Positions 22,281-25,877 of a DNA stretch of 64,000 nt are shown here, piece by piece. How positions within the stretch are numbered: position 1 is the stretch's first letter; every line of letters starts with the position of its first letter. Below the pieces are notes generated by a model. That model had not been told where the DNA came from and did not search any database. It was given only the letters and a program-made list of their open reading frames with translations. Source of the stretch: an uncultured Alphaproteobacteria bacterium (lineage in GTDB: Bacteria; Pseudomonadota; Alphaproteobacteria; HIMB59; GCA-002718135); NCBI GenBank assembly GCA_902625365.1, contig CACOAX010000004.1, forward strand, positions 1 through 64,000. Direction: 5' to 3'. The position numbers were made by a program, and so were the translations under genes.

Positions 22281-22342
22281 GCATATTAATGTTAACGATT
22301 ATAATCTTACTAAATATTAATATTAAACTAAATCAGTAATCA

Positions 22343-22391
22343 CGTTCATCACCCTTAAGGTGACGGAAGTAGACGAAAGTCGAAGGAACGC
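22343..22391 (+). ncRNA. glnA-type glutamine riboswitch aptamer 1 (amt1 leader)
   Basis: CGTTCA..CACC..GGTGACGGAAGTAGACGAAAGTCGAAGGAACGC matches the glnA RNA core as I recall it; P1 CGTTC/GAACG, P2 CACC/GGTG, P3 GAC-GAAA-GTC. Confidence 0.85.
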
Positions 22392-22408
22392 ATGCAAAGT
22401 TATTAAAT

Positions 22409-22460
22409 CGTTCAATTTGCCAAAAGCAAATCGGAAGTAGGTTTAGACCGAAGGAACGCG
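22409..22460 (+). ncRNA. glnA-type glutamine riboswitch aptamer 2 (amt1 leader)
   Basis: CGTTCAATTTGC..GCAAATCGGAAGTAGGTTTAGACCGAAGGAACGCG; same core, different P2/P3. Confidence 0.87.
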
Positions 22461-22470
22461 GATCTTATTA

Positions 22471-22553
22471 ATTAATTTCCATAGCTAAGCATGAATAGTA
22501 ACGCATGACTCAATGTGAGTCATGTACTGTGAAATTTATAATGGAGGATTAAT
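22471..22553 (+). promoter_or_regulatory. Putative expression platform of amt1: anti-SD strand, hairpin and SD
   Basis: ATTAATTTCCAT (22471-22482) can pair with ATGGAGGATTAAT (22541-22553); encloses hairpin CATGACTC-AATGT-GAGTCATG (22504-22524). Confidence 0.5.
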
Positions 22554-23838
22554 GTTAAAAAAATCTTTATACTTCATAAGCATTCTTGCTGTCTTTATGC
22601 TCTTCAGTTCATACGCAAGAGCGGAAGTAGACGGCGAAGTGCAATACATTTTAAATACATTCCTATTTCTTGTATCTGGATTCTTAGTCATGTGGATGGC
22701 AGCAGGATTTGCAATGCTTGAATCAGGACTTGTTACGTCCAAAAGTGTAGCAACAATTGCTGCAAAAAATATAGGCTTATATTCAATAGCTGGTCTAATG
22801 TTCTGGTTAGTTGGATATAATATGGCATATGGCATTCCTGCAGGCGGTTTTATTGGATCTCCACTTCTTTGGAGTGATGGTAGCGCTCTTGATACAGGTT
22901 ATTCAGATGGTTCTGACTGGTTCTTTCAAATGGTTTTTTGTGCAACAACTTGCTCAATTGTATCTGGAACACTAGCTGAAAGAATCAAAATTTGGCCATT
23001 CTTTATTTTTTGTGCTTTATTAACTGGTTTCATTTATCCAATCGAAATGGGTTGGCAGTGGGGTGGAGGATACTTAGCAGAAGCAGGTTTCTCAGATTTT
23101 GCTGGATCAACTCTAGTTCACAGCGCAGGAGCAGCAGCAGCACTAGCTGGTGCAATTTTACTAGGTCCAAGATTAGGACGTTTTACTGACAGCGGTGAAG
23201 CAGCTCCGATGGAGCCTTTTGCAAATTCTTCAATACCTCTTGCAACTCTTGGTGTATTTATTCTATGGCTAGGATGGTTCGGATTTAACGGTGGATCACA
23301 ATTAGCAATGGGTACATTTGATGACGTTACAGCAGTAGCGACTATATACATTAATACTAACTTGGCAGCTGGTGCAGGTGTAATGGCTTGTGCAGTTATT
23401 TCAAGGTTAGTAACTGGTAAAACAGATGTTGTAATGATGCTTAATGGAGCATTAGGTGGTTTAGTAGCAATTACTGCAGAACCATTAGCGCCTTCGCCAT
23501 TCCTAGCAATAATCATCGGTGCAATTGGTGGACTAATTGTCTTCTATGGAACAAGACTTTTAATTACACTTAAAATTGATGATGTTGTTGGTGCAATTCC
23601 TGTACATGGTTTTGCTGGAATCTTTGGAACATTAGTTGTTCCAATTTCTAATAGTGCAGCAACTTTCGGCGCACAACTTTACGGTATATTGGCAATTAAC
23701 GTTTTCGTTTTTGTTGTATCATTTATCATTTGGTACATCATGAAAATGCTCTTTGGTATTAGAATTAGTGAAGAAGCTGAAAAACTTGGTACTGATAAAT
23801 CTGAAGTAGGCGTTATGGCTTACAGCATCAGAGACTAA
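22552..23838 (+). CDS. Ammonium transporter (Amt family), copy 1
   Basis: 'DFAGSTLVHSAGA', 'VGAIPVHGFAGIFGTL'; ATG 22552 preceded by GGAGGA preferred over ORF-track start 22522, which lies inside the leader hairpin. Confidence 0.95.
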   Translation: MLKKSLYFISILAVFMLFSSYARAEVDGEVQYILNTFLFLVSGFLVMWMAAGFAMLESGLVTSKSVATIAAKNIGLYSIAGLMFWLVGYNMAYGIPAGGFIGSPLLWSDGSALDTGYSDGSDWFFQMVFCATTCSIVSGTLAERIKIWPFFIFCALLTGFIYPIEMGWQWGGGYLAEAGFSDFAGSTLVHSAGAAAALAGAILLGPRLGRFTDSGEAAPMEPFANSSIPLATLGVFILWLGWFGFNGGSQLAMGTFDDVTAVATIYINTNLAAGAGVMACAVISRLVTGKTDVVMMLNGALGGLVAITAEPLAPSPFLAIIIGAIGGLIVFYGTRLLITLKIDDVVGAIPVHGFAGIFGTLVVPISNSAATFGAQLYGILAINVFVFVVSFIIWYIMKMLFGIRISEEAEKLGTDKSEVGVMAYSIRD

Positions 23839-23938: not shown

Positions 23939-24313
23939 ATGACGGAAACAGAAATTGTTAAAGAAAAAAAAAGAAATATATATTCAAGCTTCTTTTCAGA
24001 AGATTATGTTTCAAAATTTTTATTCAAATCAATTTTACACCATGTAATCTCTCTAGAAATTTATGAAAATAATAGGTTAAGTGGAATTTCATTTGAAACA
24101 ATATGTGCAAATATACCTAAATCAATTGGATCTAGATCATCTATTCAATCAATTTTAAACGAAGCTTTAGAAAAAAATATTTTTCTTAAAGAGCAAAGTA
24201 AATCTGACAAAAGAATCAAAAACTACTATTTAAGCAACAATTTTCTTGATACGATTAATGGTTGGTTAAAAAAAGAAGGAACATTTTTTAATAAAATGAG
24301 TTTAGAAAACTAA
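23939..24313 (+). CDS. Hypothetical protein, possible winged-helix (MarR-like) regulator
   Basis: 124 aa with helix-rich 'SIGSRSSIQSILNEALEKNIFLKEQSKSDKRIKNYYLS' resembling a wHTH; weak. Confidence 0.5.
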   Translation: MTETEIVKEKKRNIYSSFFSEDYVSKFLFKSILHHVISLEIYENNRLSGISFETICANIPKSIGSRSSIQSILNEALEKNIFLKEQSKSDKRIKNYYLSNNFLDTINGWLKKEGTFFNKMSLEN

Positions 24314-24382
24314 TTATATTTTAGTAATTAAATTAAATACTATTTCTTGATACTTTCCGAATAATAGTTATAAGTCATATTA

Positions 24383-24432
24383 CGTTCATCACCTTATAGG
24401 GTGACGGAAGTAGACGAAAGTCGAAGGAACGC
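24383..24432 (+). ncRNA. glnA-type glutamine riboswitch aptamer 1 (amt2 leader)
   Basis: CGTTCATCACCTTATAGGGTGACGGAAGTAGACGAAAGTCGAAGGAACGC; same core as 22343-22391. Confidence 0.85.
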
Positions 24433-24449
24433 ATGCAAAGTTATTAAAT

Positions 24450-24500
24450 CGTTCAATTTGCTATTTGCAAATCGGAAGTAGGTATACCCGAAGGAACGCG
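24450..24500 (+). ncRNA. glnA-type glutamine riboswitch aptamer 2 (amt2 leader)
   Basis: CGTTCAATTTGCTATTTGCAAATCGGAAGTAGGTATACCCGAAGGAACGCG. Confidence 0.87.
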
Positions 24501-24511
24501 GATCTTATTAA

Positions 24512-24587
24512 TTAATTTCCATAGCTACGCATGAAGTAATGCATAACTAAAGGTTAGTTATGTTTTTATAATTTTATATGGAGTTAA
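24512..24587 (+). promoter_or_regulatory. Putative expression platform of amt2: anti-SD strand, hairpin and SD
   Basis: TTAATTTCCATA (24512-24523) can pair with TATGGAGTTAA (24577-24587); encloses hairpin CATAACTAA-AGG-TTAGTTATG (24542-24562). Confidence 0.5.
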
Positions 24588-24590
24588 ATA

Positions 24591-25877
24591 ATGTATAAAA
24601 AATTTTTTAGTCTTTTTGCAATTTTCTCTTTTATTTTATTGCTAAGTTCATCTGTGAGAGCAGAGGTTGACGCTGAAGTAGCATATATATTTAATACATT
24701 TTCTTTTTTAGTATGTGGATTTTTAGTCATGTGGATGGCTGCAGGATTTCTATTTTTAGAATCAGGTTTAGTTACAACGAGAAGTGTATCAACTATTGCT
24801 GCTAAAAATATTGGAAAGTTCGCAATTGTTTCAATTGTTTTCTATTTAATTGGATATAATCTTGGGTATTCTGTACCTGAAGGAGGTTATGTTGGTAAAC
24901 CATCTATATGGACTGATAATTCATCTATGGAAACAGGTTATTCAGATGCCTCAGACTGGTTTTTTCAAGCTTTATTTGTTTGTGCAACTGTTTCAATTGT
25001 ATCTGGTGCTGTTGCAGAGCGAATAAAAATTTGGCCTTTCTTCACTTTTGCTGCAATTCTTGGAGGAGTAATTTATCCAATTCAAATGGGTTGGGAATGG
25101 GGTGGAGGATGGTTAGACGCCCTAGGTTTTGCAGATTTTGCTGGCTCGACATTAGTCCACGCTTGTGGCGGTTCCGCAGCTTTAGCAGGAGTAATTCTTT
25201 TAGGTCCAAGACTTGGAAGATTCAGTGCGAGTGGAGAACCAGCTAATATGGCTCCATTTGCTCCATCATCAATTCCTTTAGTTACATTAGGAACATTTAT
25301 TTTATGGATGGGTTGGTATGGTTTTAATGGTGGATCACAACTTGCATTAGGCTCTTATGAAGATGCAACGGCAATGTCAAAAATCTTCATGAACACTCAA
25401 CTTGCAGCTTGTGGTGGATGTATGGCTGGCGCAGCAATAACAAGATTAATTGGTGGAAAAACTGATATTGTCATGATGCTTAATGGAGCACTTGCTGGTT
25501 TAGTTTCAATAACAGCTGAGCCATTAATGCCTAGTCCATTGCTTGCTATTGGAATTGGAGCAGTTGGTGGAGTAATAATGTATTATGGAACTAATTTTTT
25601 AAATTCATTAAAACTAGATGATGTTGTTGGTGCAATACCCGTACATATGTTTGCTGGTATTTGGGGAACATTAGTTGTCCCTCTAACTAATCCTGATGCA
25701 TCATACTCAATTCAATTACTGGGTGTCGCATCAGTGTGTATCTTTGTTTTTGTTTCTTCATATATTGTAATATATTTAATTAAAAATATTATGGGATTAA
25801 GAATTAGTGAAGAAGCTGAAAAACTTGGTACTGATAAAGCTGAAGTTGGAGTGGTAGCTTATTCAATTAGAGATTAA
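24591..25877 (+). CDS. Ammonium transporter (Amt family), copy 2
   Basis: Paralogue of 22552-23838 with the same twin-His motifs and near-identical C-terminus RISEEAEKLGTDK.EVGV.AYSIRD. Confidence 0.95.
   Translation: MYKKFFSLFAIFSFILLLSSSVRAEVDAEVAYIFNTFSFLVCGFLVMWMAAGFLFLESGLVTTRSVSTIAAKNIGKFAIVSIVFYLIGYNLGYSVPEGGYVGKPSIWTDNSSMETGYSDASDWFFQALFVCATVSIVSGAVAERIKIWPFFTFAAILGGVIYPIQMGWEWGGGWLDALGFADFAGSTLVHACGGSAALAGVILLGPRLGRFSASGEPANMAPFAPSSIPLVTLGTFILWMGWYGFNGGSQLALGSYEDATAMSKIFMNTQLAACGGCMAGAAITRLIGGKTDIVMMLNGALAGLVSITAEPLMPSPLLAIGIGAVGGVIMYYGTNFLNSLKLDDVVGAIPVHMFAGIWGTLVVPLTNPDASYSIQLLGVASVCIFVFVSSYIVIYLIKNIMGLRISEEAEKLGTDKAEVGVVAYSIRD

Follow-up and report, generated by a model that had tools for sequence, protein, structure and literature searches.

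The closest described relatives of the leaders analyzed here are the tandem glnA RNAs reported from marine metagenomes in 2010, together with their links to genes for ammonium transporters, PII, glutamine synthetase, and glutamate synthase (PMC2864571). In 2022, 157 tandem doublets were tabulated (PMC9481103), and a 2018 review described the class as restricted to cyanobacteria, with the links to ammonium transporters and glutamine synthetase coming only from uncultured environmental sequences (PMC6316151). Since the tandem layout and the association with amt genes were already present in the 2010 report (PMC2864571), that part of our results is not new. Here, we examine such leaders in a 64-kb stretch of DNA (the window, meaning the whole sequence analyzed) and in its relatives. 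The best overall explanation, to which we assign a probability of roughly 0.6, is that tandem glutamine aptamers set the translation of nitrogen-assimilation genes in a glutamine-OFF manner, with RNA in the role of GlnD and GlnE.

The first-pass annotation had proposed two consecutive glutamine-aptamer units, separated by a short linker, in front of an ammonium transporter gene of what looked like an alphaproteobacterium. We compared the window with the Rfam model of the type 1 glutamine riboswitch (RF01739, glnA leader; gathering score 35 bits) using cmscan, and both units before amt1 exceeded the gathering score by a wide margin (62.1 and 61.3 bits). The cores and the short linker agree with the annotation; both units lie on the + strand, and 18 nt separate the P1 stem of unit 1 from that of unit 2. 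The downstream gene matches the Pfam family Ammonium_transp, and the host assignment also holds, with near relatives deposited as “uncultured Alphaproteobacteria bacterium” single-cell genomes. A second tandem pair, absent from that annotation, precedes amt2 (64.1 and 56.5 bits), and all four units in the window match RF01739 over its full length (model positions 1-53 of 53). A third pair lies on contig 16 of the same genome, which is 55% complete, between a PII gene and glnA. The Downstream-peptide model (RF01704) gave no match at its gathering score in the 64-kb window. The binding core, CGGAAGUA and GAAGGAACG, is accompanied by P1, P2, and P3 and is invariant across 91 distinct leaders. By every sequence feature tested, the leader units are thus almost certainly members of RF01739. 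From this we infer, in line with the original proposal, that glutamine may directly control ammonium uptake.

All features of the amt1-amt2 locus described below lie on the + strand. In the amt1 leader, aptamer 1 spans 22343-22390, with P1 formed by 22343-22347 and 22386-22390 (RF01739 match at 22341-22394, E = 2.6e-11), and aptamer 2 spans 22409-22458, with P1 formed by 22409-22413 and 22454-22458 (match at 22407-22462, E = 4.1e-11). Right after aptamer 2, a GGA (22460-22462) can pair with the UCC of a UUUCC tract at 22476-22480, thereby freeing the ribosome-binding site; this pairing corresponds to RNAalifold columns 123-125/141-143 and is kept in 38-39 of 39 amt leaders. The UUUCC tract itself is a candidate anti-Shine-Dalgarno sequence, and its duplex with the Shine-Dalgarno region is predicted at -4.3 to -9.3 kcal/mol over the amt leaders. 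Farther downstream are a hairpin at 22504-22524 (CAUGACUC-AAUGU-GAGUCAUG), in which 4 of 8 pairs are changed on both sides, a GGAGG Shine-Dalgarno sequence recognized from the sequence (22543-22547), and amt1 itself (22552-23838), an ammonium transporter gene of the marine subtype (PF00909, 328.5 bits; NCBIfam TIGR03644, 571.9 bits against a cut-off of 514). Within the signal-peptide coding region of amt1, CGGAAGTAGACGGCGAAGTG at 22620-22640 is similar to a portion of the aptamer core; amt2 does not contain it, so the likeness is probably a coincidence of coding Ala-Glu-Val-Asp.

Between the two transporter genes lies an ORF of 124 aa (23939-24313) that looks winged-helix-like (MarR-like) by eye and found no match in Pfam and NCBIfam searches. 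The amt2 leader follows, with aptamer 1 at 24381-24435 (E = 7.2e-12), aptamer 2 at 24448-24502, and a hairpin at 24542-24562 (CAUAACUA...UAGUUAUG, then UUUUU), which is the covarying counterpart of 22504-22524. The gene amt2 occupies 24591-25877 (PF00909, 322.7 bits). In several relatives, the amt1 and amt2 leaders are spaced by ~2.04 kb, and the layout of amt1, 124-aa ORF, and amt2 therefore seems conserved.

We aligned 39 amt leaders and, up to the tail, 91 distinct leaders of all classes. In the amt alignment, both aptamers show covariation in P2 and P3, as does P2b of aptamer 2 of the amt1 leader. A previously undescribed helix, which we call P0, forms between the linker that separates the aptamers (CAUGC, 1-3 nt, AGUUAU) and the tail 3' of aptamer 2 (AUAGCU or AUAACU, 2-3 nt, GCAUG). 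In the amt1 leader, its 5' strand is CAUGC-AA-AGUUAU at 22391-22403, and its 3' strand is AUAGCU-AA-GCAUG at 22481-22493, directly 3' of the UUUCC tract. P0 is present in 93 of 93 tandem leaders from four gene classes, with 10-11 of its 11 pairs formed in each, and its internal loops are 3 x 3 in glnA leaders versus 2 x 2 in amt leaders. RNAalifold predicts the helix unprompted, and 99.8% of the P0 cells of the amt alignment are paired. In that alignment, 9 of the 11 pairs never vary, and the other two vary on one side only. Given this near-invariance, the support for P0 consists of conservation and uniform pairing, with little covariation. On the 3' side of the tail, the order is the covarying hairpin and then the Shine-Dalgarno sequence.

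We searched 101 genomes, consisting of 61 from the genus of the window (its own included) and 40 from the sister family of the same order. RF01739 is present in 60 of the 61 genus genomes but in none of the 40 sister-family genomes. The sole exception in the genus, G015, is 82% complete and also has no PII match. In a sample of the class Alphaproteobacteria, 6 of 385 genomes carry RF01739, belonging to the genus of the window and to one further family, and in a phylum sample the window's own genome is the only one of 399. The single-cell genomes AG-435-K07 and AG-891-K21 are genus members, their RF01739 coordinates being equal to those of G059 and G018. The HIMB59/AEGEAN-169 order comprises two families, GCA002718135 (mean 1.70 Mb, 29.1% GC) and HIMB59 (1.47 Mb, 30.7% GC) (PMC10734472). 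The window has a GC content of 29.9%, and the sister-family sample contains a one-contig genome of 1.4 Mb. The host lineage very probably belongs to this order and appears to represent its GCA-002718135 side. A tandem riboswitch with P0 also precedes an amt gene in AG-899-J15, a genome labelled SAR116 (L062:2810-3003). This amt is 73% identical to amt1, and the leader is the only place where the genome matches RF01739, which together suggest horizontal transfer of a riboswitch-amt cassette. We also considered a phage origin of the cassette and rejected it, as the linker was found in no viral contig and no phage record resembled the leader.

In Proteobacteria, GlnD reads glutamine and uridylylates PII at a tyrosine of the T-loop, and GlnE adenylylates glutamine synthetase. 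We found GlnD in 35 of the 40 sister-family genomes but in none of the 61 genus genomes, and GlnE in 33 of the 40 and likewise in none of the 61; the genomes are incomplete, with three genus members in the search at least 90% complete. Among genomes at this level of completeness, GlnD is present in ten, all from the sister family, and absent from those of the genus. The PII complement differs as well, with at most one gene per genus genome and usually two per sister-family genome. Of the PII proteins read, the 28 from the genus all carry RGSTGG(I/M)D...DDEF, whereas the two from the sister family both carry the KGHTELYRGAEY T-loop at this position. Since this replacement removes the tyrosine that GlnD modifies, we infer that the genus PII can probably no longer be uridylylated. 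No NtrC scored above the NCBIfam cut-off of 558.6 in either family (best 216 bits), a result that is uninformative given that only 1 of 14 control genomes passes.

These results suggest that riboswitch RNA is likely to substitute for GlnD in glutamine sensing in this genus, with the caveat that GlnD loss and RNA gain form one phylogenetic contrast and hence a correlation. For the wider scenario, the balance tips slightly in favor: a marine alphaproteobacterial lineage would have lost GlnD, GlnE, one PII, and the uridylylation site, and would have rebuilt glutamine control of ammonium uptake, of glutamine synthesis, and of an ATP-grasp peptide operon around tandem riboswitches whose coupling helix is specific to the lineage.

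At the loci examined, distinct tandem leaders precede amt1, amt2, glnA, and a CP_ATPgrasp_2 gene, downstream of which lie Alpha-E and transglutaminase genes. As judged from these positions, the putative regulon is amt1, amt2, glnA, and the CP-ATPgrasp/Alpha-E/transglutaminase operon. Four leaders (L012, L024, L194, and L159) contain, past the tandem riboswitch and ahead of CP_ATPgrasp, a start codon that has an upstream site of its own and begins a short reading frame; this could represent a leader peptide or else an alternative start. Single aptamers occur too. In three genus members (L008, L171, and L198), one aptamer precedes a divergent ammonium transporter (~30% identical), and these leaders contain a pyrimidine tract that is pairable either with the aptamer purine strand or with the Shine-Dalgarno sequence. 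In the second alphaproteobacterial family that bears RF01739, a single aptamer precedes the CP_ATPgrasp operon. The operon (L218:1679-4874, L219:3987-7164) thus has a riboswitch upstream in two alphaproteobacterial families, tandem in one and single in the other, which suggests a role in glutamine or peptide nitrogen metabolism. Consequently, this poorly understood operon gains a functional lead towards glutamine metabolism.

In the glutamine-OFF explanation that we prefer, glutamine would bind both aptamers of each leader, and P0 and the nearby tail would then decide the accessibility of the Shine-Dalgarno sequence. High glutamine would thereby lead to less synthesis of Amt1, Amt2, and glutamine synthetase, the presence of two aptamers would make the response steeper, and the RNA would take over the sensing job done in the sister family by GlnD, a uridylylatable PII, and GlnE. 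Repression of amt and glnA by glutamine is the polarity expected from the logic of GlnD and GlnE. Folding models of the single-aptamer relatives (six leaders, three before the ammonium transporter of the genus and the others before ATP-grasp) are OFF-like in five of six cases and ON-like in none. Modelled ligand binding hides the Shine-Dalgarno sequence in the OFF-like leaders, which favors OFF, and on the whole we consider OFF the more probable direction, with reasonable though limited confidence.

The tandem leaders themselves lean the other way when folded. With the aptamers enforced and nested folding, the Shine-Dalgarno sequence becomes more accessible in 17 of 19 amt1, 9 of 19 amt2, and 14 of 36 glnA leaders, and no leader is OFF-like. 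Such a rise in accessibility leans towards a glutamine-ON switch, for which a concrete model can be drawn. Without glutamine, the identical P1 stems would swap strands (the 5' strand of aptamer 1 pairing with the 3' strand of aptamer 2, and the 3' strand of aptamer 1 with the 5' strand of aptamer 2), which would trap the linker in a loop, and the Shine-Dalgarno sequence would be paired with the tail. With glutamine, both aptamers would be restored, P0 would form, and GGA would capture UCC, freeing the site. This model draws support from the near-invariance of the GGA:UCC pairing and from the amt2 leader, where the strand-swapped fold is the unconstrained minimum (-46.6 kcal/mol, compared with -46.0 kcal/mol for aptamer-plus-P0), and the known switches of cyanobacteria, both type 1 and type 2, are likewise ON (PMC6316151). 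However, it would be physiologically odd for glutamine to feed back positively on ammonium uptake and on glutamine synthetase, the single-aptamer relatives before the ammonium transporter model as OFF, and the folding is nested and leaves out tertiary and ligand energies. We therefore regard glutamine-ON control of the tandem leaders as a tentative reading with perhaps a third of the weight.

P0 could also hide the ribosome-binding site on ligand binding if it took part in an H-type pseudoknot, in which ligand-stabilized P0 is combined with pairing of UUUCC to the Shine-Dalgarno sequence. The UUUCC tract lies directly next to the P0 strand and, in amt leaders, base-pairs with GGAGG. However, the share of this pairing that a pseudoknot allows is weak, at -3.8 to -4.9 kcal/mol for amt leaders and -1.9 kcal/mol for glnA, the gene classes show no cognate preference, and the tails of glnA leaders do not favor their own Shine-Dalgarno sequence. 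A pseudoknot that reconciles P0 with OFF control is, in these models, weakly supported at best, and we consider it unlikely.

Equally improbable is control at the level of transcription, in which the hairpin after the tail would be an intrinsic terminator competing with P0. The UUUUU that follows the hairpin of the amt2 leader and a run of U after the hairpin of the glnA leader would fit such a terminator, but a U-run follows the hairpin in only 1 of 19 amt1 and 7 of 19 amt2 leaders, and a scan of the + strand leader gave no terminator-like site at the hairpin. The rarity of the U-rich tail in amt leaders argues for translational control, and we hold it quite likely that the expression platform is translational. 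Finally, the idea that the leader units are degenerate or chance look-alikes, non-functional as aptamers, has practically no chance of being correct and is refuted at the level of sequence by RF01739 matches with E ~1e-11, a binding core that does not vary in 91 distinct leaders, and covarying P2 and P3.

With the type 1 glutamine riboswitch, the units described here have the core and the P1-P2-P3 architecture of RF01739 in common. The characterized type 1 members are cyanobacterial, control glutamine synthetase inactivating factors, and are glutamine-ON (PMC6316151), whereas the present leaders come from an alphaproteobacterial genus, share P0 whenever they are tandem, and also have an ATP-grasp operon as a target. 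The type 2, or Downstream-peptide, RNA of cyanobacteria (RF01704) has its core and ligand in common with type 1 and, as noted above, is without a match in the window. The riboswitches of Methylophilales phage Melnitz and Pelagibacter phage Mosig are likewise marine and found outside cyanobacteria, but they are borne by phages that also encode a tmRNA (PMC9004378).

Two genome papers on HIMB59/AEGEAN-169 do not mention riboswitches. To what was known of the class, we add its host lineage, the reciprocal loss of GlnD and GlnE, a changed PII, the helix P0, and an ATP-grasp operon as a target; in the open-access literature, which excludes most subscription journals, we found no report of these. 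Likely organisms behind the environmental amt and glnA glutamine RNAs can now be named, and the class reaches beyond cyanobacteria and phages. In addition, the sister families with and without GlnD provide a natural comparison for nitrogen sensing in streamlined ocean bacteria. The GlnD-PII-GlnE system of Proteobacteria likewise reads glutamine and controls ammonium assimilation, but it is protein-based; if our reading is true, an RNA sensor stands here in place of a conserved protein signalling cascade.
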